From Flammeovirgaceae bacterium SG7u.111 (GTDB lineage Bacteria; Bacteroidota; Bacteroidia; Cytophagales; Flammeovirgaceae), in contig CP139021.1 of NCBI GenBank assembly GCA_034044135.1, positions 6,486,001 to 6,550,000 of the forward strand: 64,000 nt of DNA, given 5' to 3'. The position numbers and the translations under genes were made by a program. Within the stretch, counting starts at the first letter, position 1; each line of letters opens with the position of its first letter. The notes under the pieces were generated by a model that was not told the origin of the DNA, searched no databases, and was given only the letters and a program-made list of their open reading frames with translations. Positions 6,993 to 48,935 of this stretch are shown here, in pieces.

Positions 6993-8063
6993 CTACTCAT
7001 ACACCAACTCAAAGTTATCCACCAGAAGGGTGCTGTTTTCTGCACCTTGGAATTCTGCTCCGTAGGCACTGGAGGCGAATACTACATTTATATGGGTGGG
7101 GGTTTCGCCTAGGGCTGCGTAGGTTTCGCCTTCTTTGGGCAACATGTAGGATGGGGTGCGTGCAGGAAGCTCTCCATACGTGTATGTTACCTGGATACTT
7201 TGAATATCTCCGCCGTTGCCCGTAGTTCTCAGCCACGCTGTTGCCACTCGCTTTACTTGGTCGCCTTCTCTCCTTTCCAATACGGAGTAGATATCACAAG
7301 AATCGGGGAAGGAAAGAGCGTTGCCGTTTTTATCTATATTTTTTGGCCCTGCTTCGTAAAGGTACTGCAGCTTAAAAGATGCTGGCGTGGCGGTAAAGGG
7401 TATCCCAAAATCAATAGCTGCCTCAGGGTCGTTGATATCGATATTGTCTACATCAAAAAAGCCCGTAAAGGCAGACCCTGATGCAATCGGCTTTTTAAAA
7501 ACAGCCGCCAAGCTGCTATATCTCGTCACCATTTTGATAGCAAAATCATCGTTACTTACTTCTTCTTGCAACACATTGGCATCCATTCCCCCAAATTCCA
7601 CACCTGGATTACTCGTCCCCCAAATGGTCGAATTGACATCTGCCCCTATTTCCAAATACCCTTTTTGGGAATCGTACCATTGGTTGAAATCGGAGTTGGG
7701 TAGCTGTGGATTGCTCCCTACTTCAAATACATGCACTTTCCAGTTAGTCTGACTTTGGTCTTCGCTAGTAACTACAAAGTCGGCACTGCCAGAGGTAAAA
7801 TCGACAAGGTCGCCAACCTTCCGAGAGGAAGCGGCAAATGAAGAAAGCTCTAGCTTGGTCAGCTGGACTTGGCTAAGGTTCGTCCCATTGGCTAGCTCCA
7901 CATACACCGAGTCGTTGCTGCGGTTTATGCTCGCACTTCCATTCTGGTTCTTGAACTCGATGGACAAAATATTTCCCGCAGAAGACAGCCCAAAATGGTC
8001 TTCTTTGATACATGATTGCACCAAAATAGCAGAGAATATGAGTATAGGAAAGATATTTTTCAT
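6993..8063 (-). CDS. PCMD-type surface lipoprotein (putative carbohydrate metabolism domain)
   Basis: A 356 aa lipoprotein: a short hydrophobic leader ends in LVQSC near residue 18, so it should be lipidated and reach the outer membrane. The N-terminal part (about 25-115) looks like an Ig-like region. The remainder (about 120-355) matches my recall of the PCMD family: DFNQWYDS, then WGTSNPGV, LPKEGETYAAL and a final LLVDNFELVYE strand. That family is found near glycan-related genes in Bacteroidota but its biochemical role is not established. It lies 15 bases downstream of a beta-barrel gene and 12 bases upstream of a GT4 gene, all on the minus strand. Confidence 0.68.
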   Translation of the reverse strand: MKNIFPILIFSAILVQSCIKEDHFGLSSAGNILSIEFKNQNGSASINRSNDSVYVELANGTNLSQVQLTKLELSSFAASSRKVGDLVDFTSGSADFVVTSEDQSQTNWKVHVFEVGSNPQLPNSDFNQWYDSQKGYLEIGADVNSTIWGTSNPGVEFGGMDANVLQEEVSNDDFAIKMVTRYSSLAAVFKKPIASGSAFTGFFDVDNIDINDPEAAIDFGIPFTATPASFKLQYLYEAGPKNIDKNGNALSFPDSCDIYSVLERREGDQVKRVATAWLRTTGNGGDIQSIQVTYTYGELPARTPSYMLPKEGETYAALGETPTHINVVFASSAYGAEFQGAENSTLLVDNFELVYE

Positions 8064-41068: not shown

Positions 41069-43261
41069 TTGAAAGCAAACAAGCTAAAACCTTTCCCATT
41101 TATCAAACAAGTAGGTTTTATGGAGTGTGGAACGACCTCCCTCGCCATGATATTCAAATATTACGGGTACTATGATGTAAGAAATTTTTTATCGAAAAAA
41201 TCAGAAGTCAATACAGAAGGAATCGATCTATACACTATTAGTGGATTGGCAGAAGGTTTTGGTTTTGAAACCAATGGCTTTCAACTTAATTTTGAAAACC
41301 TGGGCAAACTCCACCTTCCTTGTATAGCGCATTATAATGGGAACCATTTTGTAGTTGTTTATAAAGTGAACGCTAAGCAGGTCTGGATCGCCGACCCAGC
41401 GGTTGGAAAATACACGCTTACCCGAGAAGAATTTGAGGCAAAATGGAACGGTATAGTCCTAGAGGTACGGCCTACAAATGAAATATTTAAACATACGGAA
41501 CTTGCCGAATTAGCCGAAGCGAACCTAACAAAAAGGAAAACCCTGTTCTCAAAATTTTATTGGAGCTCCTTACTTCCTACCAAGGGAATCGTTTTCCAAA
41601 TACTTCTAGCAACACTTTTTCTTCAACTCCTTGGCTTAGCACTCCCTTTCTTTACCCAGACTATTATCGATCAAGTGCTTGTAAACGCTAATATAAAATT
41701 GCTTTACGCAATCCTAATTGGCATGTTAGTTTTACTTACTAGCCAAGTGATGTTGACTTATGGGCGAAATATGCTCATTACTCAGTTTAAATCGACCTTT
41801 GAACTAAACTTCTTCTCCAAGTTTTTTAACCACTTCCTCCAGTTGACCCAAACTTTTTACGACAATCATAAAAGAGAAGACTTTATCAACCGCTTTCAGG
41901 TCAATTTAAAAATAAGAAATGCATTGAGGCCCTCAATTTTGGAGGGAGTCATAGATTTTGCATTTATCATGACATACCTATTGGCCCTACTTGCCTACAA
42001 TGTTCAACTAGGGCTTATTATCGTATTATTCACCTTGTTTTATACTGTTCTGACTGTTTCCTTCAGCCCCAAGCTTAGGCACCTAGAAAACAAAATATTC
42101 ACTGAAAACCAAAAAACCATGGGCCAATTTCTGGATACTCTTCTGGGCATCCAGTCGGTAAGGTTGCTGGGAATTGAAAAGCTTCGCTATTGGCAATGGA
42201 AAAACCAGTACACCAGCGCATTGAATAAGGTGATGGATACCGAAAAAAATTATATCCAACTAACTACGCTACTCAGCTCACTTAAATTTACGTGCCAGAT
42301 TGCCATCTATTGGTATGGAGCATACCTCTCTTTCAATGGGGTAATTACCATTGGACAATACATTGCCTTTATTACCATTTTCACCACTATTATAAACTCA
42401 TTATCTCGAATTACCCAGCTTTGGTTTTTGTTCACAGAGATGTCGGTCAATTTAAGTAGAATGAACGATGTCTTTATAGAAGAAACTATAGATTATTCCC
42501 CGCTAAACAAAGTTTCAATTAGCGGTCCCATCGGGATAGATATCCGCCAAGTCAATTTTAAATACAGCAGTCGCAATAAAGATTACACATTAAAAAATAT
42601 CAATCTTGAAATACAACCAGGAACTTTCCTCGGAATAGTAGGTAGAAATGGGTCGGGTAAAACCACTTTGATCAAGTTACTAAGCAACTTGTATGACCAT
42701 TATGAGGGGGAAATATGCATGAACGATGTGAGCCTAAAAAACATACTACCTGCCCAGCTAAGGAAAAAAGTGGCGGTCATACCCCAAGATATATTCTTGT
42801 TTGATGCCACCATCAAAGAAAATATTTTGTACGGAAACCCTAATGCTACAGATGAAGAGGTAATAGAAGCTGCTCAGATGGCCGATATTCATGATTTCAT
42901 TAAAACATTGTACCTAGGCTATAATCAAAAAATAGGGGTAAATGGCGCCAATTTATCTGGAGGACAGCAACTCAAAATAGCTTTTGCCCGGTTATTTGTC
43001 TCTAATCCGGAAGTGGTTATTTTGGATGAGGCCAGTAGTGCGCTAGATGTGGAAACAGAACATAGGATTATGCAGAATGTTTTCCGAAAGTTTAAAGGAA
43101 AAACAATAATCTCAATAGCCCATCGGCTACATACGCTGCAACACGCTGATTATATTGCCGTACTAGAAAAAGGTGAACTCGCTGAATATGGATCGCATAA
43201 TGTTCTGATGGATAAACAAGGTATTTACAGCCAATTTATTAACACTTACATAAACTTTTAG
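41069..43261 (+). CDS. Peptidase-containing ABC transporter (PCAT; C39 leader peptidase plus exporter)
   Basis: A 730 aa exporter that cuts leader peptides after Gly-Gly and pumps the core out of the cytoplasm. The C39 peptidase (about 1-135) has catalytic Cys in VGFMECGTTSLAM near residue 20, His in GNHFVVVYKV near 98 and Asp in WIADPAVGKY near 114. Membrane helices fill about 165-460. The ATPase shows Walker A GRNGSGKTTL near 528, the signature LSGGQQLKIAF near 630 and Walker B VVILDEASSALD near 652. The TTG at 41069 is needed because the only nearby ATG falls inside the active-site motif. It is 4 bases ahead of the HlyD gene and upstream of six double-glycine precursors. Confidence 0.94.
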   Translation: MKANKLKPFPFIKQVGFMECGTTSLAMIFKYYGYYDVRNFLSKKSEVNTEGIDLYTISGLAEGFGFETNGFQLNFENLGKLHLPCIAHYNGNHFVVVYKVNAKQVWIADPAVGKYTLTREEFEAKWNGIVLEVRPTNEIFKHTELAELAEANLTKRKTLFSKFYWSSLLPTKGIVFQILLATLFLQLLGLALPFFTQTIIDQVLVNANIKLLYAILIGMLVLLTSQVMLTYGRNMLITQFKSTFELNFFSKFFNHFLQLTQTFYDNHKREDFINRFQVNLKIRNALRPSILEGVIDFAFIMTYLLALLAYNVQLGLIIVLFTLFYTVLTVSFSPKLRHLENKIFTENQKTMGQFLDTLLGIQSVRLLGIEKLRYWQWKNQYTSALNKVMDTEKNYIQLTTLLSSLKFTCQIAIYWYGAYLSFNGVITIGQYIAFITIFTTIINSLSRITQLWFLFTEMSVNLSRMNDVFIEETIDYSPLNKVSISGPIGIDIRQVNFKYSSRNKDYTLKNINLEIQPGTFLGIVGRNGSGKTTLIKLLSNLYDHYEGEICMNDVSLKNILPAQLRKKVAVIPQDIFLFDATIKENILYGNPNATDEEVIEAAQMADIHDFIKTLYLGYNQKIGVNGANLSGGQQLKIAFARLFVSNPEVVILDEASSALDVETEHRIMQNVFRKFKGKTIISIAHRLHTLQHADYIAVLEKGELAEYGSHNVLMDKQGIYSQFINTYINF

Positions 43262-43265
43262 CACA

Positions 43266-44537
43266 ATGCCTAACACCAATAACACCTTGGCTAACTTACA
43301 AGAACATCAATACAAAGACCTCTACCACGAAGACGATGTCCCTCTTAATAACATTGGTAAGAAAATTGCCAAACTACTAATTGTTTATGGAATTGTTATT
43401 ACATTAATAAGTATCGTTATTAGTTGTGTGGTTATCGTTCCTAACGAACTGGACCTAACATTTGAACTTAGGGGAGGGAGAACGGAAAATATCATCCAGT
43501 TTCAGGAAGATTTGTATGTGAAGCAAACCTATGTAACAGTAGCCCAGCCTATAAAAAAAGGGCAACCGTTAGTAACCATTAGTTCTCCACGGATAGTGGG
43601 GCTCATTGCCGATATCAATGAAAAAGCATCCGCTCTTCACTTTTATGTAAGCCAGCAGGAGAAAGCTAACCATCAAGAAACGTTGATGATCCAAACAAAG
43701 ATTAAAGGAACTAACAATAACCTTAGCCGCCTAAGAGCAGAGCTAGCTGTATTAAAAACCTCAGCGGAACATGAAATTGGTAACCTAACCAATCAGGTTA
43801 AAAATATAGAGGGGCAGCATAACCGGATTACCAAACTATATAAAAATGGAGCAATTGCAGCACTTGAATATGACGTTTCGCTAAAATCACTTCAAGAGGC
43901 CAAATACAAGCTAATTGCTGAAGAAGAAAATTACAATATTGAACAAGCGACCCTGAGAAGCCGCATAGAAGTACTCCAAAATGAGCTTGCCAATACCAAA
44001 CAGGAATTGGAAAGTTTTATCAGTAACAGTACAGTGAAACAAGCCAACCTTGAAGAACAACTTGAACTGAGCAAAAATAGACTAGCACTCTTGTATGGAG
44101 CAACACGTATTAATGGTAATGCCATAACCCTACTGAGCGAAGCAGATGGACATGTTACCTTGCTCACAGAAAGTGAGATAAAAGTGCCTTCTGGGCAAAT
44201 TTTGGTAAGAGTACAGACCGATACCCAATCGTATTATGCTTATGCATTGGCAGAGCCAAAAGATATTGGACTGATTGGCAACAACATTTTAGCAGTGTTA
44301 AAATTTGAAGGGCTGCCGCATTATTACTACGGCACTATGAAAGCAGAGGTAGTGTCGACTAGTGAAAGCCCCGATGCTTCTGGAAAATACCCTGTACGGA
44401 TGAACATCCATGACCAAGGACAATTGGCTAACAAAGTAAGGAAAGGGATGCGAGGGACGGCTTCTGTAGTGATAGAAGAAAGACCGATCATAGGCTATTT
44501 GCTGCGTGCTTTCCTAGAAAAAACAACATTTGAGTAA
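43266..44537 (+). CDS. HlyD-type membrane fusion protein
   Basis: A 423 aa periplasmic adaptor. One N-terminal membrane helix (about 38-58, VYGIVITLISIVISCVVIVP) is followed by a lipoyl half (IQFQEDLYVKQTYVTVAQPI, KKGQPLVTISS), a long helical hairpin rich in Glu/Lys/Asn (about 115-260), and a beta-barrel domain (about 280-400, with VRVQTDTQSYYAYALAEPKD). It links the PCAT to an outer-membrane TolC-like channel that is not encoded here. It starts 4 bases after the PCAT stop, so the two are one operon with the precursor peptides 75 bases downstream. Confidence 0.88.
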   Translation: MPNTNNTLANLQEHQYKDLYHEDDVPLNNIGKKIAKLLIVYGIVITLISIVISCVVIVPNELDLTFELRGGRTENIIQFQEDLYVKQTYVTVAQPIKKGQPLVTISSPRIVGLIADINEKASALHFYVSQQEKANHQETLMIQTKIKGTNNNLSRLRAELAVLKTSAEHEIGNLTNQVKNIEGQHNRITKLYKNGAIAALEYDVSLKSLQEAKYKLIAEEENYNIEQATLRSRIEVLQNELANTKQELESFISNSTVKQANLEEQLELSKNRLALLYGATRINGNAITLLSEADGHVTLLTESEIKVPSGQILVRVQTDTQSYYAYALAEPKDIGLIGNNILAVLKFEGLPHYYYGTMKAEVVSTSESPDASGKYPVRMNIHDQGQLANKVRKGMRGTASVVIEERPIIGYLLRAFLEKTTFE

Positions 44538-44612
44538 CCAATATGGCCTGATTGCTTCACGCCATACAAAATCGTAATTTCTTTTTTTTAAACCTAAAAT
44601 CATATAAAAACA

Positions 44613-44750
44613 ATGAGAACAAAAGCAGAGAATTCCAACGCACAACCTACCAACAAAAACGAGGTGAGGCAGCTAAGCCAAGAGGAACTACAAACCATCA
44701 TTGGGGGGCCTGATTTAGAAGTTGATGATGACGACGATGATAATGGTTAA
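44613..44750 (+). CDS. Double-glycine precursor peptide, copy 1 (Asp-rich core)
   Basis: A 45 aa peptide, MRTKAENSNA start, leader LSQEELQTIIGG near residues 21-32 and core PDLEVDDDDDDNG. The leader fits the LSxxELxxIxGG signal cut by C39 peptidases, and the exporter is encoded just upstream. The core has six Asp in a row, no Cys and no ring-forming residue, and should carry a strong negative charge. It is the first of six tandem copies. The start is fixed by conservation with the other five copies. Function unknown; export as a signal or matrix peptide is inference. Confidence 0.9.
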   Translation: MRTKAENSNAQPTNKNEVRQLSQEELQTIIGGPDLEVDDDDDDNG

Positions 44751-44802
44751 AAATCAACCCTGTGAAATAAATAAAATCTTTCAACTAAAAAACAAGAGTA
44801 AA

Positions 44803-44937
44803 ATGAGAACAAAAGCAGAGAATACCAACACACAACCTGCCAACAAAGATGAGGTAAGGCAACTAAGCCAAGAGGAACTACAAACCATCATCGGGGGACC
44901 TGATATTGAGGTGCGTGATGACGACGATAACGGTTAA
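44803..44937 (+). CDS. Double-glycine precursor peptide, copy 2 (Asp-rich core)
   Basis: A 44 aa peptide with the same leader (LSQEELQTIIGG) and core PDIEVRDDDDNG, the only copy with Arg before the Asp run and the shortest run (four Asp). The frame is open further upstream to 44722, but all six copies share the ATG at this place and the sequence before it is the conserved spacer, so 44803 is the start. Confidence 0.9.
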   Translation: MRTKAENTNTQPANKDEVRQLSQEELQTIIGGPDIEVRDDDDNG

Positions 44938-44988
44938 AAATTAATCCTTTGAAATAAATAAATCTTTCAACTAAAAAACAAGAGTAAA

Positions 44989-45126
44989 ATGAGAACAAAA
45001 GCAGAAAACACAAATACACAGCCTACCAACAAAAACGAGGTAAGGCAGCTAAGCCAAGAGGAACTACAAACTATCATCGGGGGACCTGATATAGAAGTGA
45101 ATGATGACGACGATGATAATAGTTAA
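44989..45126 (+). CDS. Double-glycine precursor peptide, copy 3 (Asp-rich core)
   Basis: A 45 aa peptide, leader LSQEELQTIIGG and core PDIEVNDDDDDNS. The leader body has TNTQPTNKNEVRQ. Asp codons alternate between GAT and GAC, which argues against simple triplet slippage as the only source of the run. The end in Ser rather than Gly is shared with copy 4. Confidence 0.9.
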   Translation: MRTKAENTNTQPTNKNEVRQLSQEELQTIIGGPDIEVNDDDDDNS

Positions 45127-45178
45127 AAATCAACCCTTTGAAATAAATTAATCTTTCAACTAAAAAAACAAGAGTAAA

Positions 45179-45316
45179 ATGAGAACAAAAGCAGAGAATA
45201 CCAGCGCACAGCCTGCCAACAAAAACGAGGTAAGACAGCTAAGCCAAGAGGAACTACAAACCATCATCGGGGGACCTGATATGGAAGTAACTGATGATGA
45301 CGATGATAATAGTTAA
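45179..45316 (+). CDS. Double-glycine precursor peptide, copy 4 (Asp-rich core)
   Basis: A 45 aa peptide, leader LSQEELQTIIGG and core PDMEVTDDDDDNS. It shares TSAQPANK in the leader and Met-Glu-Val-Thr in the core with copy 5, so these two are probably the most recent duplicates. Confidence 0.9.
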   Translation: MRTKAENTSAQPANKNEVRQLSQEELQTIIGGPDMEVTDDDDDNS

Positions 45317-45368
45317 AAATCAACCCTTTGAAATAAATTAATCTTTCAACTAAAAAAACAAGAGTAAA

Positions 45369-45506
45369 ATGAGAACAAAAGCAGAGAATACCAGCGCACA
45401 GCCTGCCAACAAAGACGAGGTGAGGCAACTAAGCCAAGAGGAACTACAAACCATCATCGGGGGACCTGATATGGAAGTAACTGATGATGACGATGATGAT
45501 AATTAA
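45369..45506 (+). CDS. Double-glycine precursor peptide, copy 5 (Asp-rich core)
   Basis: A 45 aa peptide, leader LSQEELQTIIGG and core PDMEVTDDDDDDN with six Asp and a single final Asn. The following spacer is 8 bases shorter than after copy 4 because the AAAAATC segment after the stop is missing. Confidence 0.9.
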   Translation: MRTKAENTSAQPANKDEVRQLSQEELQTIIGGPDMEVTDDDDDDN

Positions 45507-45550
45507 CCCTTTGAAATAAATTAATCTTTCAACTAAAAAACAAGAGTAAA

Positions 45551-45688
45551 ATGAGAACAAAAGCAGAGAATACCAACACACAGCCTGCCAACAAAGACGA
45601 GGTGAGGCAACTAAGCCAAGAGGAACTACAAACTATCATCGGGGGACCTGATATAGAAGTGAATGACGACGACGATGATAATGGTTAA
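45551..45688 (+). CDS. Double-glycine precursor peptide, copy 6 (Asp-rich core)
   Basis: A 45 aa peptide, leader LSQEELQTIIGG and core PDIEVNDDDDDNG. It is the last copy, followed 28 bases later by a strong terminator. Its coding end and terminator resemble the end of the larger protein at 46595-47008 at the DNA level. Confidence 0.9.
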   Translation: MRTKAENTNTQPANKDEVRQLSQEELQTIIGGPDIEVNDDDDDNG

Positions 45689-45716
45689 CAGTAAGTTAGA
45701 TAGAAAGTGATATGGG

Positions 45717-45748
45717 AAAGCCTATTATAAAATAGGCTTTCTTTTTTT
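45717..45748 (+). terminator. Rho-independent terminator after the peptide array
   Basis: A 10-bp stem AAAGCCTATT / AATAGGCTTT (45717-45726 with 45731-45740) with a 4-base loop is followed by CTTTTTTT. It closes the exporter-peptide operon. Confidence 0.9.
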
Positions 45749-46594
45749 ATACGTACCTGACGTATAGAAAAAAATGTTAGCAATACTTTGGACATCACAT
45801 TAGGAATCTATAAAAAAGTACTTGTTGAAGTCATGTAAACTTGTTCACTGATTATAGTTGTAATACAGTGACTACCTGCCTCTTTAAAGAGGTCGTTTAT
45901 TTTCTTTTGAGTGAGCGAGGCTTAATACCGCTAAAGCCGCACAGGAAACATCGCCTAGTTAACTGCCTCTTTTTTATAAATAGGTGCGACCTTTAGTCGT
46001 ACATTTTCGATCTAATTAAAAGAGGCTTTAGCCAAAAGTTTAAATCAGTTCGTTGAATAGCCTACTTCTCTTGTTAGCTACAAGCAAAAAAAAATCTATA
46101 TATTAGACTATATCACGGTGTGTAGCAACAAAGTTATTTCCAAAGATCAATAACGAGTATAATTTAGCCCAAAAACTAACATTCATGTTGTTATTAACAA
46201 AACAAAGCCTCTCGATAGTGAGAAAACCTCAATAGGCGGGGCTTTTAAGCCCCGTTTGAAAGAAAAAATGACATCGGCTTTAGCCTAAACTTTTAATCCA
46301 AAAAGTCTATACAACTCAAACCGTGATATAGTCTATTGTTACAAAGTAACCCCTCACCTATATTGCACACATCAAAACTTGCATTTACGGTCAAGTAACA
46401 TTATCAATAATAACATCCCCCACATACTTAATATGATTTTCATGTAAAAAATACAGTGTTTAGAAACAATAAGGTATAAAATGCTTGGTTATACTTGTGG
46501 AAATTATCCAACAATAAGCCTTTAAAATCCAATTATGCTTATTATCTTTAGGGAGTTTCCATTTCTATTCACTCATATAAACTTAATATTACAA
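45749..46594. other. Intergenic region with several inverted repeats
   Basis: About 850 bases without a supported gene. It contains a hairpin CGGGGCTT / AAGCCCCG at 46237-46254, two copies of GGCTTTAGCC (near 46025 and 46275), and a 16-base inverted pair TAGACTATATCACGGT (46104-46119) / ACCGTGATATAGTCTA (46320-46335). It may be a worn mobile element or intergenic repeat cluster. The promoter of the gene at 46595 must lie in its last part. Confidence 0.5.
46104..46335. repeat. 16-base inverted repeat pair enclosing about 200 bases
   Basis: TAGACTATATCACGGT at 46104-46119 and its exact reverse complement at 46320-46335 flank a segment holding the GC-rich hairpin at 46237-46254. Similar bases continue outward (TAGCAACAAAGTTA on one side, TTGTTACAAAGTAA on the other). 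The form resembles a small non-coding element with terminal inverted repeats; there is no transposase gene. Confidence 0.5.
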
Positions 46595-47008
46595 ATGGAA
46601 TCTGTAAAAACTGTAGCATCTGTAAAATCTGCAACCATTTTTATTACCAAAAACCCAGAACCTGGCAATACAAGTCTGGTCTTGTTTGACACAGAAGGAA
46701 ATGTTGGTCTCCAAACAATTACTACCAAAATTGCTCCTGGAGGAACTATCACTTGGAAAATCGCCAATGAAAGCGGTGGTATCACTGAAATCACCAATAT
46801 TTGCAAGAAAAACGATAGCCAAGATGTTTTTCAGTACGACCCTACAAAACAAGAAGACGGATCTTGGCTAGGAGTAGTTAGTAGCACAGCAAAAGGCACT
46901 GAATCTTATAATATAGGCTATGTAATTGATGGAGTACATTATTTAGATGACCCTGATATAGATGTCGAGGAAGATGACGATGATGATGATGATGAAAGCG
47001 GAAATTAA
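46595..47008 (+). CDS. Ig-like protein with poly-Asp tail matching the peptide cores
   Basis: A 137 aa protein from the ATG at 46595; 20 further residues from 46535 look non-native. It has no signal peptide and no Gly-Gly leader. The body is strand-rich (SATIFITKNPEPGNTSLVLF, KIAPGGTITWKIA, YNIGYVIDGVHYLDDPDIDV) and resembles small single-domain Ig-like proteins of Bacteroidota with a Y-x-Asp-Pro-x-Ile-x-Val last strand; I cannot name the family. It ends DDPDIDVEEDDDDDDDESGN, closely parallel to the peptide cores (PDIEVNDDDDDNG). The DNA after it also resembles the terminator region after copy 6. Its gene is followed 22 bases later by the sensor kinase, suggesting one transcript. Confidence 0.8.
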   Translation: MESVKTVASVKSATIFITKNPEPGNTSLVLFDTEGNVGLQTITTKIAPGGTITWKIANESGGITEITNICKKNDSQDVFQYDPTKQEDGSWLGVVSSTAKGTESYNIGYVIDGVHYLDDPDIDVEEDDDDDDDESGN

Positions 47009-47030
47009 TTTTATTTCGTTGTGGCATGAT

Positions 47031-48935
47031 ATGGGGAAAGCCTTTTTAATAGGCTTTCTTTTTTTGTATACAAGCTCTGTATACGCTCAAAGGAATCAGC
47101 AAAAAGCTGATAGTCTGATTACAGTCTTTGAAAATAAACAACAACAATTAACCGATACAGTCAAATTAAAAATTATATTAAAAATCTGTAAGAACAATAA
47201 TAATACAGATCAGCGAATATATTATGGCCATAAAGCACTAGAACTTTCAAAAAAAACAAACAATTTATACTGGTTATACCAAAGCTCAATAGCATTAAGT
47301 CATGCATACAGAAAAAAAGGCGATCTCCAAATAGCTCTTAATTATCTTTTTGAAGCGTTAGAATATGCAAACCAAATGCACAATGAAAAACGGATAGCAA
47401 TAGCCTATAGTGCTATTGGAACCGTTTATAAAGTTGAAGGAAACTTCGAAACAGCTCTTAAATTCCTTAATTTAGCTATCTCTCACTTAAGGAAAGTTAA
47501 CGATGCTAAAAACTTAGCTAGGAGCTTGATGAATACGGGAGAACTGTACAGAACCAACCACATATTGGACACTGCCCTTCTCTACTTCCAAGAAGCAGGT
47601 GATTTATACCAACAACTTGATTACAAACTAGGAACTGCCTATAATATCGGAAATATTGGGCTAGTATATGCCGAACAGGGCAAGCATACATTAGCTGAAG
47701 AATACATAGCAAAATCTACAGCGGTTTTGGAAGAACTGGGCGATCGTTATCCAATTGCCGTATATAGTACTTGTATGTCTGATATTTATTGGGAGAGAGG
47801 GGAATGGGATAAAGCCTTTGCATATGCCCACCTTAGCCACAAAATAGGGGTAGAGGAAGGCTTGAAAGAACAAATACGAGATGCTAGCCTCAAGCTATCC
47901 GAGCTGTACGGTGAAGCAGGAGATTACCAACAAGCATTTGAGTACCACAAACAATATGTTTCGTATCGTGACAGTCTGAACAATGAGGATAATATCCGAA
48001 AAATGGCAGACTTGCGTACGAAATACGAGGTAGCGCAAAAACAAGTTGAAGTAGATATACTAGAAAAAGACAAGAAAATACAGCAGCTTCTATGGGTAGC
48101 TCTTACCATCATAACAATCCTTATATCCACCCTTGCCATTGTTTTTTACCGAAGAGGGCACAAAAAAATAAAAATCAACAAAATCCTTTCTGAACAAAAA
48201 GAAGAGCTGGCAGCCCAGCGAGATCAGCTCGACCAGCTAAACCATACAAAAGACCGTTTTTTCTCCATCATTTCCCACGACCTCCGCAGCCCTGTCAATG
48301 GTATTAACGGTTTGGTAGAGCTCATTAAAATGTACATGGAGACCAAAAACTACGATGAACTAGACGTTATGGTGAAGAACATAGACAAATCTTCTACCCA
48401 CCTCTCCTTTTTGCTCGACAATCTCCTAGATTGGGCCATAAACCAACAGGGAGAGTTCCCCTACCATCCAGAGCAAATCAACCTTAAGGCAACCGCCGAA
48501 GAGATCATCGGGATATTTCAAGATTCGGCAAGGGCAAAAGAACTCAACTTGGTTATAGACATAGAAGAAGATGTATCTGTCTGGGCAGATAAGAACTCTG
48601 TAATGACTATCATCAGAAATCTGGTAAATAATGCCATAAAATTCACTTTACGGAATGGCACAATAACTATTAAGGGGTATCCTAATGGCGAATTTGTCTT
48701 TGTAAAAGTAATTGATACTGGCATTGGAATCCCTCAAGACAAAATGGACTCTCTCTTCTTGCTCAAAGAGAAAAAAAGCACCGGAGGAACCAATGGAGAA
48801 AAGGGCTTAGGGTTGGGACTCAGACTCGCCTTCGAATTTGCCGAAATGAACAAGGGAAGTATCAAGGTAGAAAGCGTGGTAAGGCAAGGAACTACTTTTA
48901 CGGTAAGTTTGCCTCAAGCTTGCCCGGCTTCTTAA
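47031..48935 (+). CDS. TPR-containing sensor histidine kinase
   Basis: About 634 aa. The signal peptide is MGKAFLIGFLFLYTSSVYAQ. Periplasmic TPR repeats (about 45-340) include ALNYLFEALEYANQMHNE, AYSAIGTVYKVEGNFETALK and AYNIGNIGLVYAEQGKHTLA. One membrane helix follows (about 350-372, LLWVALTIITILISTLAIVF), then a short coiled coil. The kinase has HisKA FFSIISHDLRSPVNGINGL near 405, N-box NLVNNAIKFT near 530, and G-boxes DTGIGIPQDKMDSLF and GLGLGLRLAFEFA near 560 and 590. There is no receiver or DNA-binding domain and no response regulator gene beside it. The ATG at 47031 is preferred because it opens the signal peptide. A terminator-shaped hairpin overlaps codons 2-11. Confidence 0.9.
   Translation: MGKAFLIGFLFLYTSSVYAQRNQQKADSLITVFENKQQQLTDTVKLKIILKICKNNNNTDQRIYYGHKALELSKKTNNLYWLYQSSIALSHAYRKKGDLQIALNYLFEALEYANQMHNEKRIAIAYSAIGTVYKVEGNFETALKFLNLAISHLRKVNDAKNLARSLMNTGELYRTNHILDTALLYFQEAGDLYQQLDYKLGTAYNIGNIGLVYAEQGKHTLAEEYIAKSTAVLEELGDRYPIAVYSTCMSDIYWERGEWDKAFAYAHLSHKIGVEEGLKEQIRDASLKLSELYGEAGDYQQAFEYHKQYVSYRDSLNNEDNIRKMADLRTKYEVAQKQVEVDILEKDKKIQQLLWVALTIITILISTLAIVFYRRGHKKIKINKILSEQKEELAAQRDQLDQLNHTKDRFFSIISHDLRSPVNGINGLVELIKMYMETKNYDELDVMVKNIDKSSTHLSFLLDNLLDWAINQQGEFPYHPEQINLKATAEEIIGIFQDSARAKELNLVIDIEEDVSVWADKNSVMTIIRNLVNNAIKFTLRNGTITIKGYPNGEFVFVKVIDTGIGIPQDKMDSLFLLKEKKSTGGTNGEKGLGLGLRLAFEFAEMNKGSIKVESVVRQGTTFTVSLPQACPAS
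47036..47065 (+). terminator. Terminator-shaped hairpin inside the kinase signal-peptide codons
   Basis: GAAAGCCT / AGGCTTTC (47036-47043 with 47051-47058, 7-base loop) then TTTTTTT. The sequence matches the terminator after the peptide array (GATATGGG-AAAGCCT...AATAGGCTTTCTTTTTTT). It follows the Asp-tail protein gene by 28 bases yet lies just after the kinase start codon, so it may attenuate kinase expression. Confidence 0.7.

Follow-up and report, generated by a model that had tools for sequence, protein, structure and literature searches.

The 64,000-nucleotide stretch of contig CP139021.1 from Flammeovirgaceae bacterium SG7u.111 (positions 6,486,001 to 6,550,000; hereafter the window) carries a peptide-export locus that may specify an exported linear peptide signal acting on a tetratricopeptide repeat (TPR) sensor, built onto a module of a MakD-like gene and a TPR sensor gene. 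We infer both the export and the binding, and estimate the probability of this reading at roughly 0.48. The gene order, the double-glycine (GG) leaders, the P-x-h-x-h pattern (h, hydrophobic) common to the peptide cores and the MakD-like tail, the repeated junction and the position of MakD-like genes before TPR sensors are established from the sequence. The features of the locus are as follows.

41069..43261, + strand: peptidase-containing ATP-binding cassette (ABC) transporter (PCAT; C39 peptidase-ABC exporter), 730 aa, TTG start (Pfam domains, motifs)
43266..44537, + strand: HlyD-like membrane fusion protein, 423 aa (HlyD_3 barely above cut-off)
44613..44750, + strand: GG precursor 1, core PDLEVDDDDDDNG (open reading frame (ORF) and alignment, as for precursors 2 to 6)
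44803..44937, + strand: GG precursor 2, core PDIEVRDDDDNG
44989..45126, + strand: GG precursor 3, core PDIEVNDDDDDNS
45179..45316, + strand: GG precursor 4, core PDMEVTDDDDDNS
45369..45506, + strand: GG precursor 5, core PDMEVTDDDDDDN
45551..45688, + strand: GG precursor 6, core PDIEVNDDDDDNG
45708..45748, + strand: duplicated block behind the array, a terminator-like hairpin that looks like a vestige of the kinase start
46595..47008, + strand: MakD/PixA-superfamily (MakD-like) protein, 137 aa, ending DPDIDVEEDDDDDDDESGN (family profile)
47027..47065, + strand: source-like copy of the block at the MakD-like/kinase junction
47031..48935, + strand: TPR sensor histidine kinase, 634 aa, with signal-like N-terminus, TPR, transmembrane (TM) helix, HisKA and HATPase_c

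A preliminary description of the interval 41069-48935 had recognized the exporter and the peptides but missed the MakD-like gene and the TPR kinase inside it. The genes follow each other in the order PCAT, HlyD, six precursors, MakD-like gene and TPR kinase. The PCAT combines an N-terminal C39 peptidase (E-value 6.6e-36) with ABC membrane (1.4e-26) and ATPase (8.2e-31) domains, contains the motifs MECGTT, GNHFVV, DPA, Walker A and LSGGQ, which we take to have catalytic roles, and is the only C39 match in the 7.7 Mb genome. As had been described, it is followed by an HlyD-like protein and six precursors of 44–45 aa (45 in five, 44 in copy 2), with acidic cores of 12–13 residues devoid of Cys. 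The stretch LSQEELQTIIGG is identical in all six copies and the cores follow the pattern PD[LIM]EVxD(4-6). Across the 15 precursor pairs the ratio of replacement to silent change (pN/pS) is 0.15 for the leader codons and 0.22 for the first nine core codons; since silent change far exceeds replacement change, the precursors evolve as coding sequence. The C39 domain with its motif residues and the adjacent GG-leader precursors place the locus, by sequence, among PCAT-exported double-glycine systems (three of the six copies were scanned against NCBIfam).

The same parts could belong to a bacteriocin or microcin locus whose peptides kill competitors, with the MakD-like protein or an unseen gene providing immunity and the kinase acting as regulator. 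Class II bacteriocins usually leave the cell by means of a GG leader and a PCAT, and the bacteriocin-leader model TIGR01847 was above cut-off in all three precursors scanned. The cores are, however, very acidic, short and linear, with neither Cys nor an amphipathic stretch, and 22 loci with MakD-like genes beside TPR sensors lack any PCAT, so that immunity is not the general role of MakD-like genes. We therefore leave this explanation only a small chance. ComC (PF03047) matched below cut-off (E 0.11), and matches to lantibiotic leader models were likewise all below cut-off. Neither a modification gene nor an immunity gene was noticed among the ORFs of the 40.5-49 kb region, in agreement with the preliminary description, and these ORFs include no modifying enzyme of the kind that defines lanthipeptides and other modified ribosomally synthesized and post-translationally modified peptides (RiPPs).

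The clue to the target of the peptides may lie in their likeness to the C-terminus of the MakD-like protein, which reads DPDIDV followed by an acidic run, the cores reading PDIEV followed by an acidic run. A core start of the form P-x-[ILM]-x-[VI], like the last MakD-like strand, is found in 10/10 precursors from the window, Fulvivirga and Aquimarina, the three genomes in which PCAT and MakD-like genes occur together; the broader pattern P-x-[ILMFV]-x-[VIL], which these 10 also fit, opens 0/16 precursor cores taken for comparison from 8 further PCAT loci (p 0.006 in a Fisher test by locus). These 16 had been chosen by eye, the one from L055 being a doubtful gene; three further GG-type ORFs (one in L052, two in L047) stand outside the 16, and by eye none fits the pattern. 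The same scan yielded six, three and one peptides in the window, Fulvivirga and Aquimarina, respectively, and in the 22 MakD-like loci without PCAT (325 kb) it found neither a core-pattern peptide nor a C39 motif. When whole cores were compared with 28 MakD-like tails, each of the six window cores and the Aquimarina core scored best with the tail of its own locus; with the three Fulvivirga cores the own tail took ranks 3, 4 and 1.

The DNA behind the last peptide gives a second indication. The block TGATATGGG(G)AAAGCCT...ATAGGCTTTCTTTTTTT begins 19 bases after the stop of precursor 6 and again 18 bases after the MakD-like stop, and occurs exactly twice in the 7.7 Mb genome. Its local score is 55; 2000 shuffle pairs reach no more than 35, and comparisons with 2524 other window pieces no more than 28. 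The junction copy encodes the kinase start (MGKAFLIGFLFLY) and the array copy reads MGKAYYKIGFLFLY and then a stop; because the former is coding, the array copy looks derived. Both copies also read as terminators. As the junction between MakD-like gene and kinase recurs behind the array, the window core was probably copied from the MakD-like tail. In the simplest account, a duplication would have spanned the last part of the MakD-like gene and the first part of the kinase gene, the tail becoming joined to a GG leader.

The 4–6 consecutive Asp in the cores could also suggest metal-binding, matrix or mineral-binding peptides with no relation to the neighbouring genes, the more so as some copies end in DDDDNG, reminiscent of a calcium loop. 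Yet the Asp run parallels the acidic C-terminus of the organism's own MakD-like protein, and the corresponding Fulvivirga and Aquimarina cores (PELRIDRRP, PYLDIHPK) have no acidic runs, so that the acidity is a local trait. We regard such a role as very improbable. Among the roles first proposed, that of a signal rather than a pore-forming bacteriocin is favoured by the neighbourhood, because downstream of the peptides come a MakD-like gene and a TPR kinase, an arrangement shared with Fulvivirga, and the core appears to copy the MakD-like tail; the matrix and metal-binding roles gained no support.

Assignment of the MakD-like protein relies on a family profile built from 11 sequences, which matches the solved proteins 8rqy (an inclusion body protein; 2.7e-8) and MakD (0.0019) and places the family in the MakC/MakD-PixA superfamily. 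The NCBIfam MakCD model is matched by 6/11 members; for PixA (PF12306) the single matching member reaches 19.1 bits against a curated cut-off of 21, and, searched singly at E 0.1, the window protein gave no hit to an NCBIfam or Pfam model. No match to it was found in plasmids. The C-terminal strand of the family reads D-P-x-[IL]-x-[IV], in an alignment that reaches the same last strand as in MakD and 8rqy, and P-x-[ILMFV]-x-[VIL] describes 26 of the 28 tails that entered the comparison (29 genes were available; the L106 tail was omitted, and in L102, which has three DP sites, the tail was taken at the last one). In one locus (L107 3552-4520) a Ricin-B-like lectin domain (PF14200 8.8e-11) is fused to the MakD-like domain.

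The peptide core aligns with this last strand, which allows a different target, namely the MakD-like protein itself: a core arriving from a neighbouring cell, or acting before export, might replace or compete with the last beta-strand and so change oligomerization or activity. The predicted structure does place a strand at 121-125 (DIDVE), with low confidence. The model as a whole is poor (pLDDT, the predicted local distance difference test, 52), too poor for a fold search; moreover, the peptide is expected outside the cell, whereas most MakD-like proteins have no visible export signal, and the MakC/MakD dimer uses strands 5-1-2-3, not the last one, according to PMC11484084. Such strand exchange seems to us quite improbable.

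Action on the TPR sensor is suggested instead by the constant company of the MakD-like gene. The family profile matched 21/390 genomes of the order and 3/395 of the phylum (own genome in both), which with Aquimarina gives 25 loci and 29 genes. In 25/25 loci the gene directly downstream of the MakD-like gene couples TPR to an output domain, which is that of a histidine kinase in 17 (some with only HATPase_c above the threshold used), of a class III cyclase in 7 and of a SpoIIE phosphatase in 1. Since the outputs are of three kinds, it is the sensor half that is the constant partner. By hydropathy, most of the 25 sensors have a TM helix around residue 350-360 and a hydrophobic N-terminus or a segment resembling a signal. 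In two pairs of sensors the sensor halves share 57.8 and 61.7% identity, against 67.2 and 72.0% for the kinase halves. The TPR kinase of a Fulvivirga relative is split into two ORFs (L104 5166-7131).

The window sensor has all the parts of a TPR sensor histidine kinase, namely a signal-like N-terminus, TPR superhelix, TM helix, HisKA with its His and HATPase_c, with a topology read from hydropathy only. Its predicted structure (pLDDT 86) is a TPR superhelix of about 14 helices continuing into a long helix that enters the membrane. Structural matches at ranks 1-24 are LGN/Pins TPR domains, most of them solved with partner peptides or proteins; this resemblance makes any linear peptide that the PCAT may release a natural candidate ligand of the superhelix. 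The MakD-like tail is a second candidate.

Few other genomes offer a comparison for the export part. No match to the window PCAT was found at E<=1e-150 in 57 relatives, and at 1e-110 it was matched in at least 6 of 394 other genomes of the class, with two candidates per genome scored. From 21 collected PCAT loci, 7 weak ones (L058, L059, L061-L065) were set aside, and six weak matches of a separate search (G043, G062, G113, two in G223, one in G285) were left out; relatives of 44-61% identity are present in 14 loci. MakD-like genes occur in two of these 14 other genomes, and adjoin the PCAT in both. Fulvivirga sediminis (L045; G285), which is in the same taxonomic order as the window organism, repeats its gene order PCAT-HlyD-MakD-like-TPR kinase, and three GG precursors of 24 aa lie upstream in the opposite orientation; their cores are PEIRVGPGS, PEMKIRERD and PELRIDRRP, and the MakD-like tail is PQLRIQPNPPS. 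Compared with the same-genus genome G252, 11 genes are collinear and PCAT, HlyD and peptides are extra between two neighbours that both genomes share, directly beside the MakD-like gene; the difference reflects either a gain in F. sediminis or a loss in the G252 relative. Behind the third Fulvivirga precursor lies a further copy-like stretch without ATG start (L045 ~7281-7390). Aquimarina agarilytica has the same parts in a different order, with core PYLDIHPK and MakD-like tail PYFNLKSKR.

Relatives of the precursors themselves did not appear: a profile of the six matched only its own genome among 97 searched. Within that genome, a search with copy 6 (E<=10) returned the six precursors alone. 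The 39 candidates from genome_contigs and 54 from viral_contigs found by a pattern search included no relative, and plasmids and phages gave nothing.

A plausible mechanism runs as follows. The C39 domain would cut each precursor after GG, and PCAT, HlyD and an outer-membrane channel encoded elsewhere would release linear peptides of 12-13 residues. These would occupy the groove of the TPR superhelix outside the inner membrane and switch the kinase. The tail of the MakD-like protein would bind the same groove, and the peptide would be a free, exported version of this recognition tail that could serve as autoinducer or as population-level competitor; six near-identical copies would increase the dose. 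It is conceivable, although rather unlikely in our opinion, that many TPR sensors of Bacteroidota have as their ligand the C-terminal P-x-[IL]-x-[IV] tail of a MakD-like protein dedicated to them, and that a few lineages copied this tail behind a GG leader to obtain a PCAT-exported pheromone.

Several observations weigh against a peptide signal for the TPR sensor. Among the 29 MakD-like genes, judged by eye, a signal-like N-terminus is seen only in L109 (7018-7476), a case that we count in favour, and a hydrophobic C-terminus only in one gene of L112 (7481-7933). MakC and MakD of V. cholerae are cytosolic, according to PMC11484084. Since export signals are so rare and these homologues cytosolic, contact of MakD-like proteins with an outside-facing TPR domain is hard to account for. 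The Aquimarina PCAT is interrupted by an in-frame stop. TPR sensors are common, four more occurring within 366 kb of control sequence. Sensor net charge (window -2, Fulvivirga -12, Aquimarina +14) does not follow peptide charge; a charge match was tested and not found. When the comparison is limited to the first five residues, the tail of the window protein takes ranks 2-4 of 28, and outside the window genome the likeness of core and tail exists at the protein level only.

Further such points would fit the view that this likeness is convergence or a by-product, P-x-h-x-h being common in the PCAT clade and the PCAT standing beside the MakD-like/TPR genes by chance or through shared regulation. 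Exilibacterium precursors hold PPEIIIV and PPELIIV inside the core, and L047 precursors end in the strand-like DPGPDID and DPGADIDT; no MakD-like gene was detected in either genome. The case involves three loci only, and their PCATs form one clade in 0% of 200 bootstrap trees (L057 and L060 omitted), which leaves a single origin of the MakD-linked PCATs unsupported. Against convergence stand the duplicated junction block in the window, the adjacency of PCAT and MakD-like gene in 3/3 genomes having both, and the insertion in Fulvivirga exactly beside the MakD-like gene. On balance, we consider convergence unlikely.

The individual parts of the locus are of known kinds. GG-leader peptide pheromones exported by PCATs are known from the ComC/ComAB and Blp systems, which share with the window a short linear peptide behind a GG leader, a C39 exporter with accessory protein and a histidine kinase in the locus. 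Unlike them, the window has a TPR superhelix sensor, predicted to lie outside the inner membrane of a Gram-negative organism, an additional MakD-like gene and tandem precursors. A TPR superhelix is also the proposed peptide receptor here as in the RRNPP proteins (Rap, Rgg), RapF being found at Foldseek rank 45; RRNPP receptors act in the cytosol after re-import of the peptide, whereas in the window a TM helix links the TPR domain to a kinase. Periplasmic TPR domain, TM helix and kinase are likewise the parts of FimS of Porphyromonas gingivalis and of other TPR sensor kinases, although the window kinase scores 235.3 bits with the FimS model NF053520, below the curated cut-off of 600. PMC11053733 states that the FimS signal is unknown and suggests a polypeptide ligand; the window differs in carrying genes for a candidate ligand next to its sensor gene.

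In a survey of RiPP clusters from Bacteroidales, TPR genes were noted next to clusters of the PCAT type, and binding of pheromones was raised as a possibility (PMC10352776). Near PCATs without a MakD-like gene, we found TPR-output genes in L051 (cyclase), L052 (kinase) and L057 (SpoIIE). The functions of MakC, MakD and PixA are given as unknown in PMC11484084; compared with MakC/MakD-PixA, the window MakD-like gene has a TPR-output gene directly downstream and a long acidic tail. No Mak toxin-like gene was noticed among the ORFs, although no search aimed at such genes was made. No description of the combination of PCAT peptides, MakD-like protein and TPR sensor was found in the open-licence papers searched, and no known ligand of TPR sensor kinases and cyclases in the literature searched.

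The locus points to a possible peptide signal for sensors of a kind that lacks a known trigger. If the proposal is true, the ligand of such a sensor is encoded beside it and can be synthesised and tested directly. It would also illustrate a simple origin for a pheromone, as a protein tail copied behind a leader and exported, and would give MakC, MakD and PixA a first functional lead, as partners of sensors.

Other observations concern the surroundings of these genes. No RNA families were found in 40-50 kb, and sigma-70-like sites showed no excess (28 vs 26.6 in shuffles). Between the array and the MakD-like gene (46104-46335) lies a 19-nt inverted repeat with arms 194 nt apart, possibly a small mobile-element remnant; the core of its arm has no further occurrence in the window. 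At other PCAT loci, an asparagine-synthase-like gene immediately precedes the PCAT in L050 (14-1423) and L052 (3264-5438; Pfam-checked in L052). In L047 (5325-6458 and 6549-7000) a methyltransferase with weak protein arginine methyltransferase (PRMT) likeness adjoins GG precursors whose cores, with the endings given above, are Arg/Gly-rich. PCAT-adjacent genes in L036 (6368-6940, on a contig shared with L053) and L054 (991-1533) encode a GG leader, a core of 10-11 residues and a Hint/intein-like domain starting with Cys (PF14890 1.7e-4 in L036), and L060 (7406-7885) has a gene of the same type without leader; core examples from this group (L036/L054/L060) are VIIIQDIVIDG and PIDPFALIDG. Proteolysis setting both ends of the peptide, as such Hint-linked precursors would imply, would be unusual.

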